NCBI GenBank assembly: GCA_950295325.1
Contig: OX485806.1
Coordinates: 50,525,169 to 50,589,168, forward strand
Origin: Polytrichum commune
Lineage: Eukaryota; Streptophyta; Polytrichopsida; Polytrichales; Polytrichaceae
Direction: 5' to 3'
DNA: 64,000 nucleotides
The notes under the pieces were generated by a model that worked only from the letters and a program-made list of their open reading frames with translations, was not told the origin of the DNA and did no database searches. Numbering within the stretch: position 1 is the first letter of the stretch; every line of letters starts with the position of its first letter. Below, in pieces: positions 10,531 to 35,948 of the stretch. Made by a program: the position numbers and the translations under genes.

Positions 10531-10631
10531 AAATGAATAAGCAAAAAAAAAACCTCTTCGGAGGGTGCAGTTGCCGGCACCTCCTTAGAGGTGGCATATC
10601 ATACATAACCAGGGTACACATTTCAACATTC
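10531..10631 (-). repeat. Hairpin module (first copy), target of the 4.1-kb insertion
   Basis: After an A9 run comes CCTCTTCGGAGGG, a GCAGTTGCCGGCACC core and a CTTAGAGGTGG right arm. On the minus strand this reads as a GC-rich stem-loop followed directly by T9. The 4.1-kb element inserted just downstream, at CGACT. Confidence 0.7.
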
Positions 10632-10636
10632 CGACT

Positions 10637-13600
10637 TGTGGGAACACGCGAACACCAAAATGTCCGGATTGGCGGTTTTAAGTGCCTAATCCGGGTTGTC
10701 CGGATGACCCTAGTATCGTCCAGGGATTCTGTGAAGTGTAGGAGGTCTAAAACTCTCCGTACCTGCTTATTTCTTCTTCCTTAGCCAAATTTCCGGAAAT
10801 CCTAATTTCCGGATATTTGGTCTTTGGGGACATTCTTAGCCTTTTTCCGGAGGGTACCTCTCCGGATGTTATTTTTAGGTCCTCTTTATAATACTTACCC
10901 ACCCCTTTACGTCTACTCTCTAGAATAATTGGTTTCTTCCGGTGAAGACGTCCTTGATAAGGTTAGAATCCGGGAACTCCCTCACAACCAATCCGGATTG
11001 ATCAGGTCCGTCCTGGCAGGTCACGCAGAGAGATCTGGATTGTTTCTTGGGACCATAGTGGCCAGAGGAGTCCGGATTCCAACCGGAGATCTAACTCGAC
11101 GGGATGAGTAGGTGACCCGTACCACTTTCCGGATTACCCCGTCCAAAGACTGTGAGACCTCTTCAGAAGGTCGGATGGCGTAAGTCCGGCACCTTCCGGA
11201 TCTTGCCCAGTCCTAACGACGGCTATCTCACATGGACGTTACCCAGGCATTCGGAACAATGAGGATCTCTTCCTACTGCACTCCGGAGGTGGCCTCCTAT
11301 CGGAATCCTTACTGATCCGGACCTCTCCTTCTCCGTCCGACGGATCTGTCCGGCTACCTTTACCTTGGATTCTACTCAATCTGAGATAACTAGGCGATCC
11401 GTACCACTAATCCGGGCAGGTCCGTCTAAGGATGGTGGGACCTCTTCAGAAGATCAGATTGGCGTAAGTCCGGATCCCTTCCGGATCTCACCCAATCTTC
11501 CCAGCGGCTATCCCACCTAGACGTTACCCAGCCTACCGGATTAGTGAGGTTTCCCTCCCACTACACTCAGAGAGGATCTACAAGGCGATAATCGGATCTG
11601 ATCCGGGTCTCCTCTCTCATGTCCTATCCGGAACTCCTATCCCTCATGCCCTCTCTTTCTCTTCCACTAACGATCTCTGGGTTATTCACACACACACATC
11701 AATCAAGAGAAGTCAAGGAGTGAGAAGCAAAGACATTTATTCGGGGTAGGAGTGATCACAATACAACAATGGAGAAGGAACCCTTCTCAAGCTCCTTATT
11801 CAGCCTTAAGTAGAGGCTCAAAAATCCCTAAACTGAGGGCGGCGGCCCAAGCGGCCGCCGCTCAAGAAAACCCTAACTACCCCCGGTCTCCCGGATTTCC
11901 CGGATCCAGATCCGGGTTTTCCGCTGACACTACCAAAGGAAAATTTTATTAATCGTCTTCAAAAACTCCTAAGTCCTACCTGCCTACCTCCCTTCTGCCT
12001 AATTAATCTAGCTACTCCCCTAACTAAGAAGACCGGTGCTTCTTCGGAGCCGATCCCTCTTTTGAGTGACTCCCTAATCCGCTGACGGCGGATGAGCCCC
12101 CGGCCGGCGACGCCTTCTGCAGCCGCGTGAGCATCCTCCTCATGTTTGGAGACGGAGCAACCTCGTCCTCCGAATCCGCTGCCCTCTCGGTCCGTGGGGT
12201 AGCGGTCCCTGGTGTCCCGGAGACTGTCCCTGGGGTTCCAGAAGCTGTCCCCATCCGGATGCTTCGGACTGGAGAAGGATCGCTTTCGGTGCCCTGCTCC
12301 GGATTCCGTCCACCCGAGAGTGAAGCCGTCCGCGGATCCCTGTTGGAGGCCGCTCTCGAGTGTGGCGGAGGAAATGGACTCACCACTTGGCAGTCCCGTG
12401 GAGACAATGGCGAGGCGTGGGTCATAGGAGCCTTGCCCCTACTCGGAGTGGCCTCCCGATCGGAAGTCTGGTGCCGGATCGGCGTCCGAGCCCTATCCGG
12501 AGTCCGGGACCTATCCGAGTTCCGCGGAACAGGGGACTGGCCCCTTCCGGATCGGACCGACCCGGTGCTCTTCCGCCTCACCTGGGGAGAACGGACCCTT
12601 TCCGGAGCCCCTCCGGAATTACCAGGCCGAGAGCCGCCTCCTTGCTGGCTGGGTCCTGCAGAGGCCGGCGGATTCTGAACCAGGGCTACTTCACCAACCA
12701 CCTCGTAGAGGGTTCCGGTTGGTGACCCTGGCGGACCCGGATAGAGCACCCTCCGCGGTGTTCCGCTTGGCGGGACCACCCTCTGGATTTCCGCCAGGAG
12801 ATCCTTCATCGTTCGTGAATACTTCACGAGGATGGGGAGGGTCTGCCTGGCGGAAGCGGGATCTCCGGACTCCATCATCCGGTCGTAGAGATGTGCCTTG
12901 TTAACGATCTCCGCCGGATGACCCACCAGTTCCCGGATCCGGCTGAAGAACACCGCCTGCTCCGCATGGTACTTCCGGATCTCCTCGCTCTTCTGACTCA
13001 GCTCCTGAGTCATGGCCGCTACCTGGGCGGTGAGGTGGGCGTTCTCCGTCTTGGCCTGCTCCAGCTCCTTCCGATCCGCCTTTTTTGCCAATTCCCGGAG
13101 AATGTTTCCGGGTCCGCAGTCGTTCAGAGCGTGGTTCGCCCCCTTGACGATGTGCTCCAGTCGGTAGTACTGGGTCTTGAGGTCCTCCATCCCCTCCTGG
13201 AACCGCTTGAATGGATTCTCCGGGAAGTCCCAAGCGGATAGGTCCACATTTCGCCATGGGGTCTCCCGGCTGGGTCCGGCTTCCGGATGTTGGTGAGGGG
13301 GAGGGGGAGAGAGTGGCCTCGAGACGGTTGGTGGCGGGCTTCCGGGTGACGAGGGAGGTGCTTCCGGAAGAATAGGGTCGCTGGAGGTCTCCGTCTCGAC
13401 GTCTCCGGCTTCCGGAAGCAGCTTGTAGGTGACCTCATCCGCCGCTATTGTGAGCAGGTCCTCCTCCTCTGCCGTGATGCAGTCGAAATGCTGGTAGAGG
13501 TGCAAAATGAAGGGAGAGAGGAAGGAGGGGTTCCGGCCAATATGGGGGAGGGCCCGTTCGACTATCTCCTGGATGATCAGGCCCCAATTCACCGGCCGGA

Positions 13601-14779
13601 CTCCGGACATTGCACCAAACAGCGTGTTAGCCATGGTGAGGCTAATCCGCTTCGGCTTGTCCGGATTGAGAATGGGCAGGAGAAACTCTAGCACTCTCCG
13701 CTCCCTAATATTCCGGCAGTTCCCTGGGTGGAATCCGTCCTTTGGATCCGCGTCCCCTCTGAACTTCCCGGCGAACAGGCCGTCGCGGCGGCCCGCCCAC
13801 CCCTCCGTGATTCCCTTGGGAAACCCGTAGACCCTGTTCCACGTATCCGGAGTCCAATGTTCCGGATCCCTCCTCTTTGTGCCTAGCCACTGATTTCCCC
13901 TCTCGAATTTAAACTCGCGGAGGGTATCTTCCGCTCTGAGATTCCAGGGTTTGGAGAGCAATCCCGCACAACCCATGACCCTGAGATCCTCCGCGAGCTC
14001 CTGCAGCTCTCTATCCTCCCTCGGAATTGCAGGGGTGAGGGCTTTCAGCGGAATCGGGATGGGTTCCCGCTGATCCTCTTCCCGTGCTTCCGGCATTTTC
14101 CTCTCCTCTCACCCTTTCTGGCTTGCAACCTCTCTCTCTCTCTTCCGGAGTCCTTCTCTTCCGGAGTCCTTCTCTTCCGTCTAATTGCCACAAAGTCCCG
14201 GCAAGCCCACTGCCGGTGACTGAAAAGTGCTGAGTCCCAGCAATCCAACTGCTGGCGGCTCGAAAGAATGAACACCTCACCACTCGTTCTCTCAACAGGT
14301 TGCCTTTTTCCAGAAAAGAGTGGGAGGGAGAAGGAAGGGACCCTTAAATATCCTTCCTCCCTCTTCCTTCCCCTGTTACCGTTCGGTTTAACGGAAAACG
14401 GTTACGAACCGTTTTCCGGCGGTTCCCACCAACGGTTTTACTAACATTTTTACCAACGGCTCTCTTTTCCCCCAACCGCCATAAGGCCCGTTATAACCGC
14501 CACTTCCGGGCCGTTGGGTAATCTTGGCGCATCCGTTACTTGGTCCGGACCAATGGTTTGGACCATGATTACATGGTCCGCCCATCCTATTTGACGGGCC
14601 GGTCATAGTACTTATTTAGAGTCGTTTTACCGCACAAGGCGGGGTTAGACTACTCTATTTCCTAGTACCATTAATTTTGTCCTAATAGTCCCTATTATCC
14701 TCAGATAAGCAAGGTAAAATACGGAAATTGAATCCGTATTTCCGTATTTCCGTATTTCCGTCGAATTTGGACTCCCACA
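10637..14779 (-). mobile_element. 4.1-kb TGT...ACA element with one gene, copy 1 (TSD CGACT)
   Basis: Ends are TGTGGGAACACG at the left and GGACTCCCACA at the right, giving TGTGGGA/TCCCACA inverted tips. The flanks are CGACT on both sides (10,632-10,636 and 14,780-14,784). The whole 4,143-bp unit recurs at 39,615-43,727 with the same ends and a different target, so it moves as a unit. I see no direct repeats at the two ends, so it is not a normal LTR-internal-LTR structure. It could be a solo LTR that carries a gene, or a TIR element with 5-bp duplications. One gene lies on the minus strand (12,024-14,096). About 0.4 kb of 5' flank (14,100-14,500) has a TTAAATATCC TATA-like word near 14,345. 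The 1.4 kb downstream of the gene is rich in TCCGGA words. Three TCCGTATT words stand in tandem near 14,731-14,761. Confidence 0.8.
12024..14096 (-). CDS. Gag-like or plant-transposon-associated protein, 690 aa
   Basis: A single open frame of 690 codons starts at the ATG at 14,096. Residues about 25-230 form a globular, Trp-rich domain (DTWNRVYGF, GWAGRRDGLFAGKF, PVNWGLIIQEI). In pattern it resembles the plant-transposon/gag-like domains found with LTR elements, but I cannot assign it firmly. Residues about 235-290 are proline-rich. Residues about 300-395 are predicted coiled coil by heptad pattern (AHLTAQVAAMTQELSQKSEE). The C-terminal 230 residues are rich in Ser, Arg and Pro, fitting a disordered nucleic-acid-binding tail. 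No protease, reverse transcriptase, integrase or DDE motif is present. A second copy at 41,000-43,039 is about 680 codons and has three stops. The intact frame here suggests recent movement. Function unknown; a structural (gag) role is the best guess. Confidence 0.75.
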   Translation of the reverse strand: MPEAREEDQREPIPIPLKALTPAIPREDRELQELAEDLRVMGCAGLLSKPWNLRAEDTLREFKFERGNQWLGTKRRDPEHWTPDTWNRVYGFPKGITEGWAGRRDGLFAGKFRGDADPKDGFHPGNCRNIRERRVLEFLLPILNPDKPKRISLTMANTLFGAMSGVRPVNWGLIIQEIVERALPHIGRNPSFLSPFILHLYQHFDCITAEEEDLLTIAADEVTYKLLPEAGDVETETSSDPILPEAPPSSPGSPPPTVSRPLSPPPPHQHPEAGPSRETPWRNVDLSAWDFPENPFKRFQEGMEDLKTQYYRLEHIVKGANHALNDCGPGNILRELAKKADRKELEQAKTENAHLTAQVAAMTQELSQKSEEIRKYHAEQAVFFSRIRELVGHPAEIVNKAHLYDRMMESGDPASARQTLPILVKYSRTMKDLLAEIQRVVPPSGTPRRVLYPGPPGSPTGTLYEVVGEVALVQNPPASAGPSQQGGGSRPGNSGGAPERVRSPQVRRKSTGSVRSGRGQSPVPRNSDRSRTPDRARTPIRHQTSDREATPSRGKAPMTHASPLSPRDCQVVSPFPPPHSRAASNRDPRTASLSGGRNPEQGTESDPSPVRSIRMGTASGTPGTVSGTPGTATPRTERAADSEDEVAPSPNMRRMLTRLQKASPAGGSSAVSGLGSHSKEGSAPKKHRSS

Positions 14780-15905
14780 CGACTCAACCTGACTACAACA
14801 TTACATGCCTGAATTCACATTTCAACATTCAATATCAACTAAATAACACCCGCACATGCCTGAACTCACACTTAAACTAATCATCCTGAACCTTAATAAC
14901 AACCTTACAGGCCTGAAACCACAAATGAATAAGCAAAAAAAAAAACCTCTTTGGAGGGTGCCGTTGCCGGCACCTCCTTAGAGGTGGCATATCATACATA
15001 ACCAGGGTACACAGTTCAACATGCACACTCAACCTGAATACAACATTACATGCCTGGATTCTCATATCAGCATTCAGAATGAATCTTAATAACAACCTTA
15101 TAGGCCTGAATTCACACATTAGCTAACCAGTCTGAACTTATATCAAACCAAGTAAGCCGGACTTCACAAGAAACATCAAGTAAATAACAGCCTTACAGGC
15201 CTGAACTCACACTGTAACTAATCAACCTGAACCTTAATAAATACCTTAGAGGCCTGAATTCACACATTAGCTAATTAGCCTGAACCCATATCAAACCCAG
15301 CCAGCCAGAATTCACAAGAAACATCAAAGAAATAACAGCCTTACAGGCCTGAAACCACAAATGAATAAGGAAAAAAAGAGCCTCTTTGGAGGGTGCCGTT
15401 GCCGGCACCTCCTCAGAGGTGGCATATCATACATAACCAGGGTACACATTTCAACATTCCGACTCAACCTGACTACAACATTACATGCCTGAATTCACAT
15501 TTCAGCAATCAGAATGTACCTATATAACAACCTTAAAGGCCTGAACTCACACTTAAACTAATCAGCCTAAACCTTAATAACAACCTTCCAGGCCTGAAAT
15601 CACAATTGAATAAAGAAAAAAAAAACCTCTATGGAGGGTGCCGTTGCCGGCACCTCTTCAGAGGTGGCATATCATACATAACCAAGGTACATAGTTCAGC
15701 ATTCACACTCAACCTGAATACAACATTACATGCCTGGATTCACATATCAGCATTCAGAATGAACCTATATAACACCCTTACATGCTTGAACTCACACTTA
15801 AACTAATCAGCCTGAACCTTAATAACAACCTTACAGGCTTGAATTCACGCATTAGCTAATCAGACTGAACCTATATCAAACCAAGCCAGCCGGAATTCAC
15901 AATCG
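14780..15905. repeat. Tandem array with three hairpin modules
   Basis: It continues the array broken by the 4.1-kb insertion. Hairpin modules with an A-run sit at about 14,935-14,990, 15,370-15,425 and 15,612-15,665, each followed by the GGCATATCATACATAACC word. Between them are 150-bp array units. Confidence 0.8.
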
Positions 15906-16199
15906 TGTAAGCAACTGAGCGTTTAATTAACTGTAATGGACTGGCCTGGACTGGACTGATTAGAAGCCTCTCGCGGGGTGGCAACCCAAACGAATTATTA
16001 CAAGGGATTATCTAGGAAGTTATAAATAACTCTGGTGGAGACCAGATTATGGACAATATCAGACTATGCTATGATTATTTTCAATTTTGGTTGTTTTTAA
16101 AAAAAAATTGCCTCGTATTCCATATCCACGTGTCATCATCTTTAAACTACTATATTCAAATGCAAACGAGTGCGGAACATAGAATAATAAAATCCAATA
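15906..16199. other. Spacer between array and methyltransferase-like gene
   Basis: No repeat or gene is recognised. It would be the 3' flank of the minus-strand gene. Confidence 0.3.
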
Positions 16200-16430
16200 C
16201 AAAATGGAGTTCAGGGAATAAATTCATCCTCACTCTCCGAAGCACTCTGATCTATGAATCTAAGTACTCTTGGATCGTATCTCTCACGTGGACTAGAAGA
16301 GGCACTAGAACTATGGGAGAAGTTTTTGGCATAAGCTACTGCCATATCCTTTGCATAACAAGGAAGTCGCATGCTAGAACTAGAAGGTGAGCCGGAGCAT
16401 GGGCCTTGAACCATCAGACTGCACCAACAA
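16200..16430 (-). other. Possible last exon of the methyltransferase-like gene
   Basis: The minus strand is open from about 16,414 to a stop near 16,211 and encodes a Ser-rich segment ending SASESEDEFIP, like an acidic tail. Candidate splice sites lie upstream (a donor GTGAGTAAGT near 16,515 and an acceptor ending GTGCAG near 16,425), but the phase does not fit cleanly with the preceding exon. It may be a true tail exon or chance. Confidence 0.3.
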
Positions 16431-16531
16431 ATGACAACTTACGATTGTTAGAATCCATCCACTTAACTGCAACATATTGAGAAAATAAAATTAAAATGAC
16501 AAAACACTTACTCACATAGATTAACTGCACC

Positions 16532-17524
16532 TTATTGAGGGAGGGTATCGTCGTCGTCGTCAAGGTCTACAAAGTGGGTTGGATCGACCCCCTGAGAGTC
16601 CGACGCTGCGACCTGAAGTGGCTGCAGGAGTTCTTCATACAACTCCTTGTCTCCTTCAAGTGCCACAATTGCTCTGTTAGAAGATTGTGCTGCAAGAACG
16701 GAAGCACCTACAAAGACCGAAACAAAAAAAATTAGTCACATGTGTTTGATTTAGCTAAGTATAAAGACATGAGAATGTTGAACAATTTACTCATACCAGT
16801 TCCAGCAGTGAGGTCACATATAATGCCCCCTGGAGGGCTAAGGCCACTGATTAGAAGCTGGAGCACGGACACTGCCTTCTCCTTCGGGCCCCTCCAGAAT
16901 TTGTCACCGTCATTGCGTTTGAGTGCAGTATCAGTGGTGACAATGTTGAAAAGCACGGCATCACTTGCAAGGTCAACATCTTCAAATTCGTCACTAAAGG
17001 AAATCACAAACTCTTTCGGTTGCCTAACCAAAGGTGTGGAAAAAGACCGAACCAAAACGATTGCTTTGAATTTCAGAGTCTGGACAATCAACCATAGGCC
17101 CCGAATTGTTAGCAATGTACTTGAAGTCATGAACGACAGAGAACTTGAAGAGAGGAAAATTGCCAAAATTACTGACCCGCTTAGAGTTATGCATAGGGTG
17201 AGTGAGGTGGAGAGAATTCACGATGGTCCATTCCTCCTTGACCTCCAGATTGTTGTTGTAGAGAAAGCTCAAAACCTCCTTCTTGATTTGCACGCTGTCA
17301 GGATAAAATAGGAGCAGTGCCCCGTCATCGTGTAGATAGCCTTGACAGAAGCCAATGGTGAACTTGATAAAGTTATGAACCTGCTTATTCCAATGTGGAA
17401 CTTGCCCCGGGAATTCCGAAACTCTCGGGACAGGTAAACCATCGAGATATTCTACTATAATGAGGTCAACCGCAGCCTTTTGGAACACCTTGCCTGAGAA
17501 GAAGAATTCTCTGGATGCTCCAAC
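16532..17524 (-). pseudogene. Methyltransferase-domain exons (motif IV region and motif I)
   Basis: The two exons are 17,524-16,797 and 16,707-16,532, joined with shared codon G|GT. The order is SGKVFQKAAVDLIIVEYL, then HDDGALLLFYPD (a beta-strand as in the region after motif IV), then FWRGPKEKAVSVLQLLISGL. The last piece resembles the K-P helix before motif I. Next come SPPGGIICDLTAGTG and NRAIVALEGDKELYEELLQP, as in motifs I and II. The canonical DPPY/SPPY tetrad is not present after DLII. A one-base shift near 17,040 separates the two halves. The tail ends with a run of aspartates before TAA at 16,532. Confidence 0.6.
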
Positions 17525-17619
17525 CTTTGAAACAAAAAAACCAGGGTGTTAAGTATAGAATAAAGTCGTGAATAGGGGTAGGATAGCCGAATTGAATGGG
17601 AATGAAGGTGGATATGTAC

Positions 17620-18536
17620 CTCACTTAGAAAAGCAACCATGTCATCGTACGTTGAAGGAAATTTGTTGTGCTTCGCCTTATAATCCAACATCTTGTGGAA
17701 CGAGTCATTGAGTATCAAAACCCGAGGAGAAGCAAAGGATGAGGTGCTTGCCTGGGATGACGACATTGCCTTCACCGCAGGTGGCACGAATCGAATGGGT
17801 TTGCCTTGACCAAGAACTCCGAGGTGAAGACGCTTCGGAGCAGGTGCCCGTGGAGGATGGGAGCTGATAGGGTCAAGAAGTTCAGTGCGAGGATCACCGA
17901 TGTCACTGGCAGTTGCAAGAATATCTTCGTCCATTGGCTCCTCACCCAACTCAGCTGCCTTACGCTTGGATCCCTGAGGCCTACTCCTTTTAGTAGCAGT
18001 CTTGCTTCGGGAAGAGCCACCCAGTGGGGGGGTGGGAGACTGTGAGGTTGGAAGTGATGCAGCGGGAGAAGGTAGGAGAGGCTGGATAGAGTCCCTCAAA
18101 GCGATGTCAAAAGGAGGAGGTTTCTTCAACGGACAATCCAAATACCACCCGCACTGCTGAAAATGAATTGGATCCCATGCTTTTATAATTGCAGGAGTGA
18201 ACATGGAATCATGACTTTCGATATGCAGGTAGTTTGGGAAGAAAACTGGTACCTTTGAAATAGCCTTCCGGGGTAGAAGAACGTATCGAAAGTACCTGTA
18301 AAGAACCCTGCCGACAGATTGAATGAAGAAAGGTTTTTTTCCAGGGGGGTTGTTCTTGTGAGCACCGTTATCTCCACCCAACTCTATGAAAAATGCAATC
18401 TCCCAGAGCTGACACCTCATGGCCTCGACGTAATCGAAGATATTCAATATCGGGTCCTCGCCATCGGGATTGTAGTTAATAGTCTCCCCAAGGTCAGTGA
18501 GCACCCCGATAAGAGCTTGTCAGCCTCCACTGCTAT
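17620..18536 (-). pseudogene. Middle exon of the methyltransferase-like gene
   Basis: The exon starts after an acceptor TGTCTCAG and ends before GTACATATCC. The first half is globular (YVEAMRCQLWEIAFFIELGG; HFQQCGWYLDCPL). The second half is a low-complexity Ser/Pro/Lys-rich linker with SRSKTATKRSRPQGSKRKAA, a probable nuclear localisation signal, and an acidic stretch. A TGA at 18,520-18,522 lies where GGC-TGG-CAA is expected. I do not recognise the globular part. Confidence 0.55.
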
Positions 18537-18599
18537 CTGAGACATGCACATGAAACATTTGCAAGAAGTAAGATGTTGTCTTATAATTGCTATCCTTTC

Positions 18600-21150
18600 C
18601 ATAACAACCTTACATTCCTGAAATCACTCAATAGCTAACCAGACTGAACCTATATCAAACCAAGTAAGCCAGATTTCAGAAGAAATATCAACTATATAAC
18701 AGCCTTAGCTGCCTGAACTCACACTGAAACTAACCAGCCTGAACCTTAATAACAACCGTACATGCCTGAATTCACAAATAAGCTAACCAGACAGAACCTA
18801 TATCGAACCAAGTAAGCCGGACTTCAGAAGCAATACCAACTATATAACAGCCATAGATGCCTGAACTCACACTGTAACTAATCAGCATGAACCTTAATAA
18901 CAACCTTACAGGCCTAAATTCACACATAAATTAATCATACTGAACCTATATCAAACCAAGTAAGCCGGATTTCAGATTCATTATCAACTATATAACAGCC
19001 TTAAAGGCCTGAACTCACACTGAAACTAATCAGCCTGAACCTTAATAATAACCATACATGCCTGAATTTACACATAAGTTAATCAGACTGAACCTATATC
19101 AAACCAAGTAAGCCGGACTTCAGAAGAAATATCAACTATATAACAGCCTTACAGGCCTGAACTCACACTTAAACTAATCAACCTGAACCTTAATAACAAC
19201 CTTATAGGCCTATATTCACACATAAGCTAACCAGATTGAACCTATATCAGACCAAGCCAACCGGAATTCACAAGAAACATCAAGTAAATAACAGCCTTAC
19301 AGGCCTGAAACCACAAATGAATAAGAAAAAAAAAACCTCTTTGGAGGGTGCCGTTGCCGGCATCTTCTCAGATTAGGCATATCATTCATAACCAAGCACA
19401 CATTTCAGCATTCAGACTAAACCTGAATACAACATTACATGCCTGAATTCACATTACAACAATCAATATCAAGTATATAACAGCCATAGATGCCTGAACT
19501 CACACTGTAACTAATCAACCTAAACCTTAATAACAACCTTACAAGACTGAATTCACACATAAATTAACCAAACTGAACCTATATCAAACAAAATCATCCG
19601 GAATTCACAAGAAATTTCAACTAAATAAAAGCCTTATAGACCTGAAACCACAAATGAATAAGCAAAAAAAAAGCCTCTTTGGAGGGTGCCCTTGCCGGCA
19701 CCTCCTCAGAGGTGGCATATCATACACAACCAGGGTACACATTTCAGCATTTTGACTCAACCTTCCAGGACTGAATTCACACATAAGTTAACCAAACTGA
19801 ACCTATATCAAACAAAATCATCCGGAATTCACAAGAAATTTCAACTAAATAAAAGCCTTATAGACCTGAAACCACAAATGAATAAGCAAAAAAAAAGCCT
19901 CTTTGGAGGGTGCCCTTGCCGGCACCTCCTCAGAGGTGGCATATCATACACAACCAGGGTACACATTTCAGCATTTTGACTCAACCTTACAGGACTGAAT
20001 TCACACATAAGTTAACCAAACTGAACCTATATCAAACAAAGTCAGCCGAAATTCACAAGAAATTTCAACTAAATAAAAGCCTTACAGACCTGAAACCACA
20101 AATGAATAAGCAAAAAAAAAACCTTTTTGGAGGGTGCCGTTGCTGGCACCTCCCCAGAGGTGGCATATCGTTCATAAACTGGGCACACATTTCAACATGC
20201 ATACACAAACTGACTCCATCATAACATGCCTGAATTCACATTTCAGCATTCAGAATCAACTATATAACAGCCTTAGCTGCCTGAACTCACACTTAAACTA
20301 ATAATCCTGAACCTTAATAACAACCTTACAGGCCTGAATTCACACATTAGCTAATCAGACTGAACCTATATCAAACCAACCCAGCCGGAATTCACAAGAA
20401 ACATCAAGTAAATAACAGCCTTACAGGCCTGAAACCACAAATGAATAAGCAAAAAAAAAACCTCTTTGGAGGGTGCCGTTGCCGGCACCTCCTCAGAGTA
20501 GGCATATCATTCATAACCAGGCACACCTTTCAGCATTCACACTCAACCTGAATACAACATTACATGCCTGGATTCATATATTAGTAGTCACAATGAACCT
20601 ATATAATAGTCATAGATGCCTGAACTCACACTGTAACTAATCAACCTGAACCTTAATAACAACCTTATAGGCCTGAATTCACACATTAGCTAAGCAGACT
20701 AAACCTATATCAAACCAACCCAACCGGAATGCACGAGAAACATCAAGTAAATAACAGCCTTACAGGCCTGAAACCACAAATGAATAAGCAAAAAAAAAAG
20801 CCTCTCAGGAGGGTGCCGTTGCCGGCACCTCCTCAGAGTAGGCATATCATTCATAACCAGGCACACATTTCAGTATTCAGACTAAACTTGAATACAACAT
20901 CACATGCCTGAACTCACACAAAAACTAATCAAAATTAACCTATATAACAACCTCAGATGCCTGAACTCACACACGAACTAATCAGAATGAACCTTAATAA
21001 CAACCTCAGACACCTGAAGCCACAAATGAATAAGAATAAAAAAAACCTCTGAGGAGGGTGCCGTTGCCGGCACCTCCCCAGAGGTGGCATATCGTTCATA
21101 ACTTGGGCACACATTTCAGCATTTAGACTCAACCCTATTCCAACATGAAG
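18600..21150. repeat. Intronic array: 150-bp units and seven hairpin modules
   Basis: It lies entirely in the intron between exons 21,169 and 18,536. It begins with about five 150-bp units (18,600-19,300). Hairpin modules follow at about 19,325, 19,668, 19,890, 20,112, 20,452, 20,790 and 21,033. The 224-bp unit holding the modules at 19,668 and 19,890 is a nearly perfect direct duplication. All modules have the A-run on the plus strand, so the nascent minus-strand transcript would carry a stem-loop followed by a U-run each time. Confidence 0.85.
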
Positions 21151-21168
21151 TTTGAGATGAATACTAAC

Positions 21169-21863
21169 CTGCGCCCACCATATTGCCCGATTGAGCCATT
21201 CGGGAAACTTGGAATCGGCAAAGCTAGCCTTGGGAAAGCGATGCGCATCACGAATTGCAGCAGAGGAGTTCCACCTCTGGAGCCACTTAACCATCATCTT
21301 TGGAGGCATCGCGGAAGTGGCTAACATGTAGAGCTTCTCCTGGAGCATCTCAGGTTCATCAAACTTCTCATAATGAGCCTTTACTTCCTCTAGAAACAAA
21401 GGAGTAACTTGGGATCCGCAACCGGCAAATGCTTCCTCAGCTCCGAAACAAACTTATCTTCGACCTTCTTCACAGCCTTCCTAACCCACTCCTCTGCATT
21501 ATGATCCGTCCAATTAGTCAAATCGGGGTTCTTCATCTTGTATTTGTCTTCAGCAACATGTGCAGCTTCTGCAATCTCTTGCTGTTATTCCAACAAGTAA
21601 GTCATTTAGTTCCACGAATTCCATATCCAAAAATTAAATGAGACGAGAACATTTGAGCTTGACAATACCTGGTAAAGGAAGGCATTGAGACCCTCAACAG
21701 TAAGGGTGAACCATGTGCAATTTTTTCCAGCCTGCTTCATCTTTGCAGCCTCCAAAACAGTTGGAGACACCAAACCCTGAAAGTAGGAAAGAGGCTGTGG
21801 GGCAATATTCTGGATGCGAAATAACTTGTGAACTAGGTTCGTGGTTACGTGAGATTTCTGATT
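21169..21863 (-). pseudogene. Exons 2 and 3 of the methyltransferase-like gene
   Basis: Exon 21,863-21,669 is exactly 65 codons and reads NQKSHVTTNLVHKLFRIQNI onward to LYQ. Exon 21,581-21,169 begins CAAGAGATTGCAG in the same phase and reads QEIAEAAHVAEDKYKM. It changes frame once near 21,410 before LFLEEVKAHYEKFDEPEM and ends IWWAQ before GTTAGTAT. It is mostly helical, and no family is recognised. Confidence 0.55.
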
Positions 21864-21940
21864 CTTCCAGCAAAACTAAAATATGTATTAGAAAGTTGCA
21901 AGAATACTTCAACCAACACTAGCAAGGATGAGGCTCTTAC

Positions 21941-22490
21941 CAATTCACTTCGTGCAGAGCGGCTATCACTGATGGAATGTCTCCCCTCGGGTCAAGGATT
22001 ACACCCTCAACACAGAAATGCCAATTGAGATCATGAGTATGGAACTGCTCAATAATTAGCATCCATGCTTGCAGTCGATGGTTCCCATCCCAAACCATGA
22101 ACATCTTATTCGAAAAAATCTTCAAGTCATTATCTGCAAGAAGTTTCTTCTCGAATTCCTTATTCACCTCCTTCCACTCCGTTGACCACTTCGCCATCAC
22201 ACTCGGGGTCACATCATTGGTGTGCCCATGGTTGTCCTCCAATGTCACATAAAAGAAACCATAGCCCTCCATGTAGCCATCAGTCATAAAATGAGTTGCG
22301 AGTTGGGACACGTCGTTCTTGAGGTACGGTCTCACCACCAGAAGAGACATCATACGGCAAAGGGGGATGAAGAGATGATCCTTCTATTTTGGTTGTCATT
22401 TTAGTCTCTCCAAACGGGACGCTGTTGGAATGCTCTCCTTTATCGCAAAGTCGTGAAGCTTCAGCTTCAACTCCACATCCGTAAGGCGGA
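21941..22490 (-). pseudogene. ParB-like exon of the methyltransferase-like gene
   Basis: The exon starts after TTGTTGCAG and reads RLTDVELKLKLHDFAIKES. It meets two in-frame stops 12 bases apart (22,396-22,398 and 22,384-22,386; flanking residues K_QPK_KD fit Trp in both). It then continues open for 138 codons. The MFMVWDGNHRLQAWM segment fits the conserved GxHR box of ParB/sulfiredoxin-like domains. The domain assignment rests mainly on this box and its hydrophobic context. Confidence 0.5.
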
Positions 22491-22619
22491 CTGCAACAAA
22501 GCAAAGTACTCAGCATTGTGAAAGGACATTAGGAATGATATGAAACTTATAAGGATGCATATAAATTTAAATCTAAGCACTTTTCATTGGAGGTTCCAAT
22601 CATTTGCAAGCAGCCTACA
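22491..22619. other. Intron start, non-repetitive
   Basis: Short intronic sequence upstream of the ParB-like exon on the minus strand. It has a polypyrimidine-like acceptor and nothing else recognised. Confidence 0.35.
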
Positions 22620-24092
22620 CAACAAAAACAATCAGACTCAAGATATCTCCAACCAAGTAAGCTTGACTTCATAAGAAATATCAACTACAAAACCTTAATA
22701 ACAACCTCATACGCCTGAATTCACAAATGAGTAGGCAAAAAAAAAAGCCTCTGAGGAGGGTACCGGCAACGGCACCTCCTCAGAGGCGGCATATCATTCA
22801 TAACCAGGGTACACATTTCAGCATTCAGACTCAACTGACTCCAACATTACCTGCCTGAAATCACACATACACTAGTCAGCCTGAACTTATATAACAACCT
22901 TAGCTTCCTGAACTCACACATAAACTAATAAAAATGAACCTATATAAAAACCTCAGATGTCTGAACTCACACACGAACTAATCTGAATGAACCCATATTA
23001 TAACCTTGGATGCTTGAACTCACAAATGAATAAGCAAAAAAAAAACCTCTTTGGAGGGTGCCGGTAACGGCACCTCCTCAGAGGCGGCATATCATTCATA
23101 ACCAGGTTACACATTTCAGCATTCAACCTGAACTGAACTCCAGCATTCCCTGCCTGAAATCACACATACACTAATCAACCTGAACCTATATAACAACCTT
23201 AGATGTTTGAAATCACTCATTCACTAGTCATCCTGAACCTATATAACAATCTCGGATTCCTGAACTCACATACAAACTAATCAAAATGAACCTATATAAC
23301 AACCTTAGACGCCTGATTTCACAAATGAATACGCAAAAAAAAAGCCTCTGAGGAGGGTGCCGTTGCCGGCACCTCCTCAGAGTAGGCATATCATTCATGA
23401 CCAGGCACACATTTCAGCATTCAATATCAACTAAATAACACCTGTACATGCCTGAACTCACACTTAAACTAATCAGCCTGAACCTTAATAACAACCTTAC
23501 AGGCCTGAAACCACAATTGAATAAGCAAAAAAAAACCTCTGAGGAGGATGCCAGTAACGGCACCTCCTCAGAGGCGGCATATCATTCATAACCAGGTTAC
23601 ACATTTCAGCATTCAACCTAAACTGAACTCCAGCATTCCCTGCCTGAAATTACACATATACTAGTCAACCTGAACCTATATAACAACCTTAGATGTCTGA
23701 AATCACAAATTCACTAGTCATCCTGAACCTATATAACAATCTCAGATTCTTGAACACACATACAAACTTATCAAAATGAACCTAAATAACAACCTTAGAC
23801 GCCTGAATTCACAAATGAATAGGCAAAAAAAAACCTCTTTGGAGGATGCCGTTGCCGACACCTCCTCATAGTAGGCATATCATTCATAACCAAACACACA
23901 TTTTATCATTCAGACTAAACCTGAATACAACATTACATGCCTGAATTCACATTACATCAATCAAAATGAACCTATATAACAACCTTATATGCTTGAACTC
24001 ACAATTAAACTAATTAAAATGAACCTATTCAACAACCTTAGACGCCTGAATTCACAAATGAATAGGCAAAAAAAAAACCTCTGAGGAGGGTG
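22620..24092. repeat. Hairpin-module array, left part
   Basis: Modules lie at about 22,735, 23,035, 23,335, 23,527, 23,823 and 24,066. Here the core appears in two states: CCGTTGCCGG, and its reverse complement or a near variant, CCGGCAACGG/CCGGTAACGG. The last module is cut at GGAGGGTG by the hAT-like element. Confidence 0.85.
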
Positions 24093-24630
24093 CACGGGTA
24101 GGTCACTCTAAGGCATTTTTGTTAGGGGTTTTTTGTTTTGGGGCTATTTACCTTCAAGGGCTGAATTAAAGCCTCCCTATAATTACTTAAATTTAAAAAA
24201 TGGCCCATTTGTTTGCAGCCTTTCATTACTTATATTGTCCAAGTCACTGCAATTTTTTGTACTCTATATTCCTTTCAAGTAATAAAAATTAATCTACTTC
24301 CTAACGCATTGATGAGTGTTAAGGGAAACCATGGAAACAAAGAAGGGTGCAAACAGTAATATCATTGCAAACATAGTTATGAAGAAAACACATAGGAGAC
24401 CATAGCAAACATACCTTCTAGGATCCTTATCCTCAGCCCCTATATTAATTTTACAAGAAAATAATGGCCCACATTTTATGTCCATCTAACTTACTTATAA
24501 TGGAATTGTCTACATTTAATGGCCCTTTCAATATTTGGAATTCCTTTATAATTTTTATTTCAAATGATTTTAATCCTCTCTATATTATGTTGCACGTCGT
24601 TTTTAAAATGCACTAAGTGACCTACCCGTG
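24093..24630. mobile_element. hAT-like MITE, 538 bp, TSD GGAGGGTG
   Basis: Left end CACGGGTAGGTCACT and right end AGTGACCTACCCGTG form a perfect 15-bp inverted repeat, with weaker pairing further in (GGCATTTTTG against a GCATTTTAAA-like arm). Both flanks are GGAGGGTG (24,085-24,092 and 24,631-24,638), and an 8-bp duplication fits the hAT superfamily. It has no coding frame. It landed inside a hairpin module. Confidence 0.85.
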
Positions 24631-25035
24631 GGAGGGTGCCGCTGCCGGCACCTCCTCAGAGGCGGTATATCAATCATAACCAGGGTCCACATTTCAGCAT
24701 TCAGACTCAACTGACTCCAACATTACCTGCCTGAAATCACACATACACTAGTCAGCCTGAACATATATAACAACCTTAGATGTCTGAAATCACACATTCA
24801 CTAGTCAGCCTGAACCTACAAAACAACCTCAGATTCATGAACTCACATACAAACTTATCAAAATGAACCTATATAACAACCTTAGACGCCTGAACTCACA
24901 CACGACCTAATCAGCATGAACCCATATAATAACCTTGGATGCGTGAACTCACAAATGAATAAGCAAAAAAAAAGCCTCTGAGGAGGGTGCCGGTAACGGC
25001 ACCTCCTCAGAGGCGGCATTTCATTCATAACCAGT
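24631..25035. repeat. Hairpin-module array, right part
   Basis: This is the remainder of the module cut by the MITE (24,631-24,670, core CCGCTGCCGG), spacer units, and another module at about 24,963-25,015 with the CCGGTAACGG core. Confidence 0.8.
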
Positions 25036-25040
25036 GTCCA

Positions 25041-28008
25041 TGTGAACCCTTTGAGTGGTCCACCACTCTGCGGGATCACTTTTAGTTAGAATGTTAGCAT
25101 TAAAAGTTAGAATTGATAGAGAATTTAGGGAAAATTAGTTCATTTAGCATTTAGCCTAGAAGAAGGAAGGTCAAAATGAAACTAAGTAGTGCTAGAAGAT
25201 AGCAAAGTAGAAAAAATATGCTAGCTAGTAAAAGCAACTAGCTAAGCAAATATTAGTAGATGCTAGCTATTAAGCAAATGTTAGTAGATGCTAGCTAAGC
25301 AAGTGTTAGTTTATTAGTTAGTGTGAGGCACACAAGACTATTGGAGGTGTTTTATGTAAGAAGAAAAAATTGGCTTGAAGACTTTTGAAGAAAATTAGAA
25401 AGAGAGCAAGGGGGCTACTTGCCCACTTGCCCCCTTGCCAACTCGATGGCGGAAAAATTAGAAAGATTTCTAAAGGTTTTTTGTCGGAGCCACCTCGGCG
25501 AGAGGGTGGAAACCTCAACTGGGAAAACCCCCGAGCCAAAATTTCGGGAAAGGGTTTGAAAAATGGATCCGGTAGAGGAGGGGTCCAACCCTTTTGTGAG
25601 AGGGTTTAAAAACCCCTCCTTCCACCTTGTAGCTCTCTCTCTTTCTCTAGTTTTTGGCGAAGCCCTGCGTCAATGTAGTTAGGAAAAAATCCTTTAGCAT
25701 GCATTTTCAATGGCCTAAAAAAAAGGCTTGAGAACCTCCTCTACTCTCTCTCCTAGTTTGAATGTGTGTTTATTAATACACCAACAAAATTATTCCTTCT
25801 TTTGTAGAGGTAGGTTGGATGGTAGAGTTTGAATGGAGGCATTGTAGACCTCATCTGCCAATGCCCTGAAAGCTTAGTTCAAAAGCTAGAACAAGATACT
25901 TATTATTTTTCTCTTAGAGAGATTTCATATAGCTATCCATAGCCGTTTCCCATTTGTGATTTGGTTAAGATGACAATTAGTTATGGATTTCCAAAGATGG
26001 AGTAGAAAACTGGGTGGTCTTGTGGGTAGCGGCTGCTGGATCAGACCTGCGAGCCCAATAGGAATTTTAATTCTAACAAGTTATATTTTTTCCAAGTAGA
26101 ACTTTTGTGTAGCTTTCTAAAATGGCTTAGAACATTTGATTTGAGCATGATTTGAATTAGATATGAATTGTGGAAGATGGGACACATAGTTTGAGAACGT
26201 TTGGTTGACTGCTGCATTACAGAGGATCTGCTGGGTTCACTTCGGCTTACCTTTCTAATCACATATTTTTATCAAATACATCTTTTTAATATCTCTCCAA
26301 GGTCATATAGAACGTTTGATTTGAATAAGATTTGAATTAGATATGAATTGTTGAAGGCGAGATACATAGTTTAAGCCTTCTTGATTGACTGCTGTGTTAC
26401 AAGGAGTCTGCTGAATTTCTATTAGCTTAACTTGCTGATGTCATAATTTTCCTAGTTAGAACTTGTTCATAGCTTTCCAATAGTATAAGGAAATCCTAGA
26501 TCCAACTAGTAAGGAATGTGCTATGAATTTTTGAAGTTAGAAAGTAGATAGGTGGGTTGGAAGGGTCGGTTGAATCGACCTCACACTTCCAACCCTCATA
26601 ACTTTTGCAATTCTTATCTGATTAAAGTGATTTTTAGATCATTGGAAAGATAATTAGGTGCACTAAGTATAAATATTATGCTTAGGATTAAATTACAGTG
26701 CAGAATAAATACTTTATATTTTAATTGTTAACTAAGGTACGCTTACTACCAAACTAGTTACAAAGAAGGAGGCAAGGTCGACGCTAGGGAAGTGGAGCAA
26801 GGAAGGAGGTAGCGGCTCGGCCTACATCGAGCCCAAATCAACCAAGGAGAATTGAGGTAAATTTACTAACGCTAGCCTTCCATTTAGGGTTGGAGGGAGC
26901 GCGGCTAAGGTACGCATCTATAAACCCACTCACCTATCTCGTAAGGTCAAGTGGCTTGACCACTTGACCGCCAAGGGAATACCCAACTCCATTGTTTTCG
27001 GGGCCCTTGGTATGTTTTGTGATAGTAGCTTCATTTATTAGCAAGTTTCGTGTGTGGTAAGTCGGATTAATCACCGACACGACCACTCTGAATGTTGTTG
27101 GTGGAAATGTGGGATTAATGACCCGCGAATCCACTATTATGTTGTTGGCCCCATAGATTGGGAGTAATGGCCCCAATTTATGAAGATTGCGTAACAGGTT
27201 GAACCTATAGATCGTCCGTCACCCTGGTCCCATTGAGTTGCATTTCGTGGTCTATCTAGTGTAAACACATTTAACAATCAAAACATACAAAATAAATCGT
27301 GAACCCTTGTTGGCAAGAGACCCGAATCGGAAACTTAACTCGGTAGAGTGATACCACCCTTCGAACCATTGATGTTCGAATGGGTTTGAGATGTCACTCA
27401 ACCTTCAAAAGACCTGCACGAGGCTTTAGAAGGTTCCGAGGTAAGGGGTGCACCAACCAGATAAGGGGTGATGCCTAATATGTTAATGTAGTGAGTTAGG
27501 ACGTGCAAACAAAAGTAAGTAATTAAGAAGAAATGTGTGTGAAGGGTGGGACTTAGGCCAAGTTCCCCTGCTTAGAAAACTAAATAGAACTAAATAAAGA
27601 AATAGGAAGAATTGAATGGTCCATCAAATTGTCGTTATTCCGTTCATTGAGCTAGGGTGGTATGAGTCACACCCGGTTGGTGTGTATCAGAACCATCTTA
27701 ATTCACAAATTAGGATTGCCTTGGGTTCAAGGCTGGTGCGTCTGCACGTAGAATAGGTTGTAGGTTAAGGTTAGAACTAGATATGAAATTGATTAGTGGA
27801 GTTTAGAGCCACACTAGTAAAAAACTAAGGCCCAACCTCCGGAGGTACTACGACGCATATTTAATCTCTCTTAAAAATCTAACTACTCACGTTATACACT
27901 TATCATCCGGGTTCGGCTTGGGCGCCTGCAAATGCAGGCCACCTTCACCGAAGGGCTTGTGTGATACTTTTAGGCTCCCTCGAAAGGGGGTGGCCCAAAA
28001 GTACCACA
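25041..28008 (+). mobile_element. 2.97-kb LTR-like element, copy 1 (TSD GTCCA)
   Basis: It starts TGTGAACCCTTTGAG and ends CAAAAGTACCACA, so it is TG...CA bounded. GTCCA flanks both sides (25,036-25,040 and 28,009-28,013). A second copy, inverted, lies at 48,907-51,744 with its own 5-bp duplication. It has no retroviral coding region, so the simplest reading is a long solo LTR. A non-autonomous element is possible. An 80-codon frame at 26,934-27,176 (minus) is conserved in both copies, but that is expected from DNA identity. It is inserted in the hairpin array. Confidence 0.85.
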
Positions 28009-28790
28009 GTCCACATTTCAGCATTCAAACTCAACTGACTCCAACTTTACATGCCTGAACTCACACTACTCAGCCTGAACCTATTTAACAACCTCAGACG
28101 CCTGAATTCACAAATGAGTAGGCAAAAAAAGGTTTTTTTGGAGGGTGCCGTTGTCGGCACCTCCTCAGAGGCGGCATATCATTCATAACCAGGTTTCACA
28201 TTTCAGCATTCAGACTCAACTGACTCCAACTTTACATGCCTGAACTCACACTACTCAGCCTGAACCTATTTAACGACCTCAGACGCCTGAATTCACAAAT
28301 GAGTAGGCAAAAAAAGGCCTTTTTGGAGGGTGCCGTTGCCGGCACCTCCTCAGAGGCGGCATATCATTCATAACCAGGTTTCACATTTCAGCATTCAACT
28401 TGAATTGAACTCCAACATTACCTGCCTCAAATCACACATAATCTATTCAGCCTGAACCTATATAACAACCTTAGATGTCTGAACTCACACCTGAATTCAC
28501 AAATGAACAAACCTACTTAGAACCTCTTTGGAGGGTGCCGGCAACGGCACCTCCTCGGAGGTGGCATATCATTCATAACCTGGGTACACATATCAGAGTT
28601 CAAATTCAACCGAACTGCAACAATACATGCCTGAATTCACACATAAACTAGTTAGCCTGAACCTATATCAAACCAGTTAAGAACAACTATAGAACAACCT
28701 CCGAGGAGGGTGCCTTTGCCGGCACTTCCTCGGAGGCAACAAATCATTCATAACCATGCTACACAAATATGCTTCCACATTGAATACGAC
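28009..28790. repeat. Hairpin-module array after the LTR-like insertion
   Basis: Modules lie at about 28,125, 28,312, 28,522 and 28,697. Two consecutive units of about 188 bp (28,015-28,200 and 28,203-28,390) are near identical. The module at 28,522 has the inverted core CCGGCAACGG. Confidence 0.8.
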
Positions 28791-28960
28791 CAAGAAGAAC
28801 GCCCACAACCCATAACCCTTAACTTGGTGATGGCAGCTCCTCCATCTTAATCCTTGAATCTGCCCTCGCAAGTTTTCCTCAACTCAGGTGAAGCAATGCG
28901 GCTCCTAAACTAGGGAAAAATTTGACCATATGAGGCAAGTTTAGGGTTTCAGAAACCCAC

Positions 28961-29200
28961 CTTCGGGTTCCATCAAACTCGTCTCATCAGCCTCTTCCTC
29001 CGCACTGTGCTCCTTTGATGCGCGGTTGGATGCGGGATTGGAATGCATTCCCTAATCCCTTGATGGTTCTCTAGACTGTGATCCTTGCCCCCTGGACATT
29101 GACGAACCTTGAGATTCATCTACCGTCGATAATGTTGCGTTCTCCCATGTGTCTTCAAAATCTAAAACTTCCCTCTCTTCTTTCTCCTCTTGTTTGGGTC
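28961..29200 (-). other. Candidate 5' exon of the methyltransferase-like gene
   Basis: On the minus strand, after acceptor ACATGCAG, a frame reads DPKQEEKEEREVLDFEDTWE onward and ends MEPEG before a GTGGGTTTC donor. It has one internal TAG. It is acidic and disordered, like an N-terminal tail. It could belong to the minus-strand gene at 16.5-22.5 kb, with the arrays lying in its first intron, but the link is inferred from strand and order only. Confidence 0.4.
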
Positions 29201-29571
29201 CTGCATGTCATGTGACACCTTTCCAGAGCATGTCTACTCAAACACTCGCATAACCCTCCCTTCAACCGAACACATAATACATACCTTTTGATACTAAAAC
29301 AAAAACATGAACCTCACGATATCGGAAACAAGTGTGCGCACGAGAGACAATCCTATATTTAATGCCCATTTGGGATTTTACCATTTGATCTATTCCTGTC
29401 CTGTAACTTAATTGTCCTCTATACTTATTATCTTTATACTTAGTTATATCTATATTTTAAGTCGGCGCCAACTAATCTTATTTAATTTCTTGTCAAGTAG
29501 AATGTCTACCATGACTTGGACGCTCTAATTATGTATATCGTGACAGCTTTACATATTTAAAAATATTATTC
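29201..29571. promoter_or_regulatory. Putative bidirectional promoter region
   Basis: It is a 370-bp gap between the candidate 5' exon on the minus strand and the transposase gene on the plus strand. It is AT-rich, with TATACTTAGTTATATC and TATATTTT words at about 29,434-29,458 on the plus side. No experimental sign of a start site is available from sequence alone. Confidence 0.35.
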
Positions 29572-35938: not shown

Positions 35939-35948
35939 TCAAAATGGT

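Follow-up and report, generated by a model that had tools for sequence, protein, structure and literature searches.

Why does a transposon in Polytrichum commune carry a gene that combines ParB-like motifs with motifs of a DNA amino-methyltransferase, and what might its product do for the element? We addressed this in a 64,000-nucleotide stretch of contig OX485806.1 (hereafter the window) and in related copies across the genome.

A two-gene transposon with 10-bp target duplications

A preliminary description had placed the gene inside a plant transposon, and inverted ends flanked by an identical 10-bp duplication, TCAAAATGGT, confirm this setting. The element consists of two genes arranged head-to-head, an accessory gene on the minus strand and a transposase-like gene on the plus strand:

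8546..35938, no strand assigned: DNA transposon, ∼27.4 kb with nested insertions counted (identified from inverted ends, target duplications, and comparison of copies)
8536..8545, no strand assigned: left 10-bp target-site duplication (10-mer identical at both ends)
35939..35948, no strand assigned: right 10-bp target-site duplication
8546..8596, plus strand: left terminal inverted repeat, beginning GGGGAAAGTTAGTATGCGAGC, inner limit approximate
35888..35938, minus strand: right terminal inverted repeat, imperfect, inner limit approximate
16211..29206, minus strand: accessory gene, 8 exons, broken in the window copy (splice sites and frames)
29515..33534, plus strand: transposase-like gene, broken in the window copy, limits approximate (open frames and copy comparison)

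Target duplications of 10 bp were present in three of the four copies with both ends, two further copies having their own (AGGCGTCAAT and TGTGGAAGGC), while the fourth, c1_08, has a shortened left end and no duplication. The left-end sequence of the window transposon recurs at position 1332 of L031, a copy from a diverged subfamily. The ends carry a repeated word of their own, different from the internal palindrome described below, and no inverted repeats of ≥ 40 bp were found within positions 8000–28500 of the window.

Mutator-like elements (MULEs) are characterized by target duplications of 8–11 bp and inverted ends, and the element agrees on both counts. The earlier assignment to MULEs is consistent with the 10-bp duplication and inverted ends, whereas Pfam transposase models, MULE included, matched none of 27 members at E 0.1. 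The second transposase frame of a single copy (L020) reached 17.9 bits for SWIM against a cut-off of 19.6, and the first frame retrieved 122 relatives in a frame-level query of the protein database.

The family is large, with ∼1,200 first-look candidates for each of two seeds. Genome-wide matches numbered 151 for the exon-A frame and 159 for the exon-E frame of the accessory gene, some being split pieces of one copy. A gene hit lay ≤ 20 kb from 43 of 103 transposase hits, in 40 cases head-to-head (random mean 2.1), and the accessory gene was found ≤ 30 kb from seven of 16 diverged transposase hits.

Exon structure and selection

The minus-strand exons previously reported to give, when spliced, a GNHR box and later DLII followed by DLTAGTG were recovered at the same positions, the latter two motifs in that order within exon E. 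Exons 1 and G are additions to the earlier exon set A–F:

28961..29206, minus strand: exon 1, charged and low-complexity, frame broken in the window copy (within conserved sequence that separates the two genes)
21941..22490, minus strand: exon A, ParB-like motif region (R..L..G, then GNHR)
21169..21867, minus strand: exons B and C, without known domain (B ∼21867–21670, C ending at 21169)
17621..18536, minus strand: exon D, including a fast-evolving linker
16797..17524, minus strand: exon E, methyltransferase-like domain with altered motif IV (EYLDG in the window) and motif I DLTAGTG
16512..16707, minus strand: exon F, end of the methyltransferase-like domain (NRAIVALEGDKELYEELL)
16211..16418, minus strand: exon G, C-terminal tail and stop

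The window copy of the accessory gene is a pseudogene: its exon A contains two in-frame stops, the frame is broken in exon C and once in exon E, and exon 1 is broken as well. In its relative c6_330 (L019+L020), the frame stays open through all exons from A onward, giving 1069 residues when spliced, but exon 1, which is open in copy c4_4349, has a stop. A spliced full-length query found no relative in the protein database among 7,990 candidates scored, perhaps because that database consists of unspliced frames; exon-level queries found 102.

The genome-wide matches, together with a median dN/dS of 0.088 for exon A over 21 pairs, place the accessory gene beyond chance, dN/dS being mostly saturated between distant subfamilies. 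Exon E gave 0.16–0.26 in three comparisons, and such values, well below 1, indicate purifying selection on the accessory gene as judged from its sequences. The exon-D linker reached 0.95–1.17 in four comparisons between subclades. Ratios were higher, on few changes, between close copies (exon A 0.27–0.51, exon D 0.23–0.48) and for the near-identical frames L040–L042 (0.49–0.89). There is no value where the orthologous stretch is absent (exon E versus c2_670, c4_4870, and c4_4595; exon C versus c4_4595). Comparisons with more codons than the query reflect overlapping matches and were left out, namely exon A versus c3_55 and exon C versus c3_55, c4_4870, c1_08, and the window for the accessory gene, and ORF1 versus c7_369 and c3_163 and ORF2 versus c7_369 and c4_4349 for the transposase.

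Because of these selection data, it is already unlikely that the gene is a passenger which the element acquired from its host or from bacteria and for which it has no use, a reading to which we give very little credence. Gene capture by MULEs (described in the excerpt of PMC6446971), the existence of ParB–methyltransferase fusions in bacteria, and the ratios of L040–L042 would fit it. Against it stand the low dN/dS across diverged copies, the recurrence of the gene with the same ends in the diverged subfamily of L031, and its proximity to diverged transposase hits.

ParB-like motifs in the N-terminal half

ParB proteins have an R..L..G segment followed by a G..R box. In 14 rows of exon A, R60, G78, N143, and R145 are invariant and G142 and H144 nearly so, with ∼40 extra residues between R..L..G and GNHR. 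The ParB-like domain of the preliminary description is thus borne out as a motif pattern but not by profile or fold: Pfam ParB_N matched none of 14 accessory-protein members, profile–profile comparison with ParB gave a probability of 0.6%, and a fold search with a low-confidence model of this half ranked Noc/ParB first at E above 3. Searches for ParB by Pfam, NCBIfam, PHROGs, a PDB profile, and hhalign, the last run both on the intact region and after removal of the extra segment, gave nothing significant. The genome contains four PF02195 hits, on small contigs C10, C12, and C23. The motifs suggest, without establishing, that the N-terminal half may adopt a ParB fold.

A methyltransferase fold with a replaced catalytic motif

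The C-terminal half is a beta-class amino-methyltransferase fold according to profile, fold, and hhalign matches, in agreement with the earlier proposal of a methyltransferase-like part with beta-class motif order; no profile search assigned it to a non-methyltransferase family. The curated cut-off of N6_N4_Mtase (PF01555, 26.7 bits) was exceeded by L040 (35.3) and L041 (32.4, profile 1–216), which are 98% identical and therefore one lineage. L042 (25.5), spliced c6_330 (23.0, E 8.6e-5), and a piece of L032 (14.0) fell below it, and single window exons had no PF01555 hit. Profile and fold matches comprised DpnA/M1.HpyAVI, CcrM (covering profile 16–219), M.BceJIV, RsrI, and rotifer N4CMT, all of which differ from the family in the catalytic tetrapeptide. 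The predicted structures of the two halves had low confidence (pLDDT 48 and 51), and the methyltransferase model still matched its own family.

A host gene was considered as the source and rejected: five of 38 PF01555 matches were above the cut-off, namely L040, L041, and three located on small contigs C10 and C12.

In beta-class methyltransferases, motif IV precedes motif I, and hhalign across both halves recovers this order here. The catalytic motif of amino-methyltransferases is [DNS]PP[YFW]. In our alignment of 112, xPP[YFWH] occurs in none of the 82 readable rows, so that the catalytic tetrapeptide is replaced; the aromatic position is D, E, or N in 80 rows and aromatic in two. Five bacterial, plasmid, and phage relatives all have the aromatic (four DPPY, one DFPY). 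Motif I reads D...[GS]TG in 12 of 18 readable rows.

Because xPP[YFWH] is missing from every readable row, the earlier suggestion that the transposon could modify its own DNA is weakened, and ordinary amino-methylation has probably been lost from the C-terminal half. We consider it improbable that the protein is an active methyltransferase that binds the element and introduces N6-methyladenine or N4-methylcytosine into it. The fold and motif order, the motif I count, and the low exon-E dN/dS argue for such an enzyme, and self-modification has already been proposed for the Ectocarpus Sola1 gene (excerpt of PMC12477816), but the replaced motif IV, set beside relatives that all retain the aromatic, argues against it.

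Palindrome arrays at the elements

Tandem arrays in introns and flanks, whose repeat units are for the most part unrelated from one element to the next, share the palindrome GGTGCCG-N4-CGGCACC (word 1), distributed in the window as follows:

18601..21074, no strand assigned: tandem arrays within the C–D intron, 7 of 19 palindrome sites
22698..28551, no strand assigned: tandem arrays in intron 1, 8 of 19 palindrome sites
10564..15848, no strand assigned: stretch downstream of the accessory gene, 4 of 19 palindrome sites (array 14795–15873, one site at 10564)

A nested repeat (∼25041–28008) interrupts the intron-1 arrays, and a gag-like frame lies between palindrome site 10564 and array 14795–15873.

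The palindrome was present in arrays of all 11 elements examined (that of the window plus 10 copies from one clade). Its core occurs in 22 of 38 arrays and is absent from 16, and the units of those 22 sort into eight groups that share no detectable similarity beyond the core. A clade ∼57% identical has arrays with GGGTGCC-N3-GGCACCC (word 2), in which the half-site letters are the same and three rather than six bases separate the GGTGCC half-sites. In clades L031 and L032, the parts of the gene examined, all of them outside intron 1, showed none of these arrays.

Genome-wide, word 1 had at least 1000 sites versus 1 for the reversed control, and the first 50 listed, all on contig C1, were all ≤ 10 kb from a gene exon. 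For one word-1 variant, 37 of the 39 sites listed were ≤ 10 kb from a gene or transposase hit. Word 2 had 59 sites versus 3 for its control, with 49 of the first 50 listed at gene copies (≤ 10 kb). Three sites among those listed lie away from every listed hit. Among the sites checked, the palindrome word is almost confined to these transposons, and it may be the basis of element self-recognition.

Two other explanations of the arrays appear unlikely to us. Palindromes could be structural, being minisatellites that readily form hairpins and that slippage and gene conversion have spread without a protein partner: the dyad adjoins an A-run in several arrays, which in gene sense reads as a terminator-like hairpin followed by a T-run, and tandem repeats are dynamic. 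Yet the same core letters, beyond symmetry, stand in units otherwise without detectable similarity, and the other clade retains the half-site letters at another spacing. Equally doubtful is a role in transposition, for which MURB of MuDR is the comparison, in which the second protein or the transposase would bind the arrays inside the element to assist its excision or integration. The co-occurrence of both genes, mostly head-to-head, is consistent with such a helper, but the palindrome sites are internal, many of them intronic, and distant from the ends, which have their different word.

A candidate self-recognition factor

Our preferred reading, which we hold at somewhat short of even chances, is a two-gene transposon whose accessory protein binds the palindromes in its own arrays and counters silencing or marks copies. 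The protein would recognize palindromic GGTGCC-type sites (candidate target GGTGCCGTTAACGGCACC) that the element would maintain as arrays within its introns and flanking parts, and by coating its own copies would counter host silencing or otherwise mark them, a parallel being VANC on VANDAL MULEs, which brings about hypomethylation of the elements that encode it. The C-terminal half, with its methyltransferase fold and SAM-pocket motif, may be a scaffold, may switch in response to SAM, or may still be an enzyme whose substrate has changed. We favour a sequence-specific self-recognition factor, probably with an anti-silencing role as in VANC, over a self-methylase. The array and site counts, the low exon-A dN/dS, the fast-evolving exon-D linker, and the likeness to VANC targets speak for this reading, and the palindrome arrays lend indirect support to the earlier idea of escape from host silencing. 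Against it weigh the motif-level status of ParB, the lack of a VANC domain match, the 16 arrays without the core, the result in clades L031 and L032, the three outlying sites, and the possibility that the transposase is the binder.

More tentatively, and with a lower probability, recognition might be partition-like: a protein derived from ParB, its methyltransferase fold now a SAM module that is non-catalytic or re-purposed, would load on clade-specific parS-like palindromes, their spacing coevolving with the protein. If so, VANC-type anti-silencing would have been invented independently, or the transposon would have a new form of self-chromatin marking. The palindrome is kept in arrays while the rest of the unit differs, so the element itself supplies a candidate target, and the question of self-recognition is therefore testable by binding.

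Relation to known systems

ParB-plus-methyltransferase accessory genes have already been reported in algal transposons: in the excerpt of PMC12477816, Ectocarpus Sola1-1_Ec32 carries such a gene, whose protein is stated to have a ParB-like domain, and the kind is said to occur in green and red algae; the excerpt names no target for these proteins. By that description, the two are alike in lying on the strand opposite the transposase, in length (∼1,100 residues), and in an N4/N6-type methyltransferase domain; our element differs in its plant host with LFY and in its 10-bp duplication versus a Sola element. This family also has the replaced catalytic motif and the palindrome arrays, the Ectocarpus gene being compared by description only. 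Among the titles and abstract openings listed by our searches of open-licence literature, none mentions a transposon of land plants that carries this gene. The excerpts of PMC12477816, PMC6446971, PMC13317346, PMC12454661, PMC12704722, and PMC5735166 name no palindrome target.

In the excerpt of PMC5735166, VANC targets are often tandem repeats, introns included, and VANC proteins have variable regions; the Polytrichum family likewise combines a second protein with a variable region and a shared word in rapidly changing tandem repeats, some of them intronic. The word is palindromic here, unlike YAGTATTAC/T, and a Pfam search with spliced c6_330, read up to E 5, returned neither of the VANC domains DUF1985/DUF287.

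The altered motif IV is a warning against calling such genes 6mA or 4mC writers by domain name alone. Phage and plasmid ParB–methyltransferase fusions keep the motif-IV aromatic that the plant family lacks, and a fusion on small contig C12 has the ParB_N match that the plant-family members do not. With such fusions, exemplified by Desulfofustis phage WBK39746.1 and Wolbachia phage WO ADW80203.1, the alignment of the C-terminal half spans 197 columns (hhalign 96%, E 3.1e-9).

Accessory gene model and selection

All exons claimed in the preliminary description were confirmed on the minus strand at their positions, exons A–F as listed there. Guided by the relative c6_330 (loci L019 and L020), whose reading frame runs uninterrupted from exon A onwards, we modelled the accessory gene, the second gene of the transposon, with eight exons, two of them additional:

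29206–28961, minus strand: exon 1
ending at 16211, minus strand: exon G

In the window copy, exons 1, A, C, and E are interrupted by stops or frame breaks. Median dN/dS for exon A was 0.088 (21 pairs of seven copies, dS 0.32–1.06). Between subclades, values were 0.06–0.11 for exon A (six comparisons), 0.16–0.26 for exon E (three comparisons with dS above 0.3), 0.27–0.44 for transposase ORF1 (four), and 0.95–1.17 for exon D (four); the short exon F gave 0.22–0.50 (three). On the whole, the accessory gene is maintained for the protein it encodes, whereas exon D evolves rapidly. The three near-identical L040–L042 frames yielded 0.49–0.89 on 5–8 synonymous changes, speaking neither for nor against selection in that subfamily. 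Between the window copy and c6_330, dS was 0.72 for exon A, 0.35 for E, and 0.18 for D, and such inequality among exons of one pair suggests mosaic elements or gene conversion.

A methyltransferase fold with a replaced catalytic motif

Single exons of the METHYLTRANSFERASE half gave no methyltransferase Pfam hit. The spliced c6_330 protein matched N6_N4_Mtase at E 8.6e-5 (23.0 bits, under the cut-off of 26.7), and the L040–L042 subfamily, in which the last exons lie in one frame, scored 35.3 bits (L040), 32.4 bits over profile positions 1–216 (L041), and 25.5 (L042). A ten-row family profile searched against PDB retrieved DpnA (E 1.2e-7) and CcrM (E 3.8e-5), and hhalign against five bacterial, plasmid, and phage ParB-methyltransferase proteins returned 96% (E 3.1e-9, 197 columns). 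Although the structural model was poor (pLDDT 48, pTM 0.49), Foldseek returned 40 hits with E ≤ 0.001, every one a beta-class DNA amino-methyltransferase. Profile searches and structure prediction concur with the methyltransferase assignment made earlier, and we regard the fold and beta-class motif order of the C-terminal half as secure.

The further proposal of a self-modifying methyltransferase fared less well at the catalytic motif. We compiled motif IV from 102 database relatives and 10 rows of our own (112 in total), all five columns being lettered in 82 (75 + 7), which represent related copies rather than independent observations. The form xPP[YFWH] occurred in 0 of these 82 readable rows; EYPDG (29), QFPDG (14), DYPDG (5), DIPDG (4), and rarer forms stood in its place. 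The third place was proline in 70 and the fourth D, E, or N in 80, with an aromatic at the fourth in only two (L041, DIPYG; P0158, QFPYS), whereas all five comparison proteins keep the aromatic (DPPY in four, DFPY in one). Of 18 rows readable at motif I, 12 had the form D...[GS]TG. Nearly all rows lack the usual base-stacking residue, yet the motif IV site is still conserved, which suggests that methyltransferase activity has been lost or changed.

Bacterial-type methyltransferase and ParB genes also occur on the small contigs C10 (L037, L039), C12 (L038), and C23 of the same assembly, including a ParB-methyltransferase fusion with DPPY at L038; these contigs are probably bacterial or prophage contamination. 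The C10 methyltransferase (L039, frame 1–1848) appears, by eye, to have an intein-like insertion between its halves.

The N-terminal half

Across 14 rows, residues R60, G78, N143, and R145 never vary and G142 and H144 are nearly invariant; an extra segment of ∼40 residues separates the halves of the putative ParB fold. The ParB assignment in the preliminary description agrees with these motif residues but gained no statistical confirmation: Pfam ParB matched 0 of 14 members, the N-terminal profile found nothing relevant in PDB, and hhalign gave 0.6% and 0.3%. Removing the extra segment in three ways gave scores of 7.3, 4.7, and 0.4, the best being colinear yet equalled by 1 of 20 shuffles. Foldseek with the N-terminal model (pLDDT 51) placed Noc at ranks 1–3 and a ParB sixth of 11, all at E ≥ 3.2. 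By motif, this half appears ParB-like.

Transposon structure and family size

Comparison with ten copies and their ends (drawn from the best 15 exon-A hits, in 20-kb stretches) set the transposon limits at 8546–35938; its inverted ends are imperfect, and the target duplication measures 10 bp. Such duplications flank three of the four copies with both ends (window, TCAAAATGGT; c7_369, AGGCGTCAAT; c6_330, TGTGGAAGGC); the fourth, c1_08, is truncated on the left and lacks a duplication. The same end is present in L031, which shares 39% exon-A identity with c6_330. A transposase-like gene lies on the opposite strand, head-to-head with the accessory gene, and was matched in 7 of 10 copies; for the remaining three, it may fall outside the 20-kb stretches compared. 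The protein database contains 122 relatives of its first frame, and a SWIM finger in the second fell just under its cut-off (17.9 versus 19.6 bits). Because MULE Pfam matched none of 27 transposase-like members, the proposed MULE identity draws on the inverted ends and duplication, by which it is the best fit, and is unproven by the transposase.

Two related gag-like frames lie on the minus strand at 12024–14108, inside the transposon, and 41000–42796, with a weak ZapB hit and otherwise no Pfam domain. Repeats at 6388–7359 and 25041–28008 recur near other copies, mostly at 94–97% identity, and are likely young insertions.

The genome spans 407.8 Mb, and its four LFY-domain matches above cut-off point to a land plant or a close relative of one; contigs C1–C7 are chromosome-sized, and a set of seven chromosomes would fit a polytrichaceous moss. 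The ParB-like exon seed gave 1159 first-look candidates and a second seed 1203, with 151 and 150 matches, respectively, among the best scored; the second set, mostly without stops, lay by eye in largely different places. The methyltransferase exon seed gave 1483 first-look candidates. About the best 150 candidates were scored per seed, making match counts lower bounds. A listed gene exon hit lay within 20 kb of 43 of 103 transposase hits, 40 head-to-head, against a random expectation of 2.1 (maximum 6, 500 draws); the other 60 had none among the matches listed.

Palindrome arrays

All 19 window sites of the palindrome GGTGCCGNNNNCGGCACC (≤1 mismatch) fall inside the element, against 0.01 expected, and exact sites occur in 25 of 59 loci, some overlapping. 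Genome-wide there are at least 1000 sites versus one for the reversed word; the first 50 listed, all on C1, form six clusters, with no site farther than 10 kb from a gene exon. For the variant GGTGCCGTTGCCGGCACC, 34 of all 39 sites lie near the gene and 37 near gene or transposase, where random placement near the gene predicts ∼0.7% (150 hits × 20 kb over 408 Mb). For palindrome sites at C4:42581878, C4:42598846, and C6:23778487, the hit lists contain neither gene nor transposase within 10 kb.

A word-independent search found 38 tandem arrays (period ≥100) in 11 elements. The core (≤2 mismatches in the unit) is present in 22, at least one per element, and absent from 16. Units of the core-bearing arrays form eight groups, between which blastn (E 0.001 over 40 bp, same strand) detected no similarity beyond the core; in some groups, A-runs recur beside it. 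In the L030 clade (exon A ∼57–60% identical), a 128-bp array upstream of exon A carries GGGTGCCTGAGGCACCC, which shares the GGTGCC half-site with GGTGCCGNNNNCGGCACC at a spacing of 3 versus 6. It has 59 sites genome-wide versus 3 for the control, and among the first 50 listed, 49 are at most 10 kb from a gene copy and form seven clusters at this clade, the one exception being farther away. In L029, of the same clade, the upstream sequence reads N. In two further clades (L031 and L032), the gene stretches covered, without intron 1, showed no arrays with a period ≥100.

A word that stays constant while the rest of the array unit varies has the look of a binding site, and many arrays sit in the accessory gene's own introns. 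Passages on VANDAL21, an Arabidopsis MULE with an anti-silencing protein, place VANC words often in tandem repeats, in VANC21 and VANB21 introns and upstream of VANA21, and describe variable regions suspected of setting VANC specificity (PMC5735166). On this basis, we favour an element-encoded self-recognition factor that would act on the palindromes, probably against silencing, with the accessory protein as candidate binder. Transposons of algae are reported to carry accessory genes with ParB-like and methyltransferase domains (PMC12477816). ParB-CTPase folds fused to N6_N4 methyltransferases are described, in passages of PMC12704722, as commoner in phages than in bacteria, and this kind of gene is already known; what differs here, as far as tested, is the plant host, another transposon type, the replaced catalytic motif, and the palindrome arrays.

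Several arrays, e.g. L019 3304–4924, have a T-run after the palindrome in the gene's sense, resembling a terminator hairpin.
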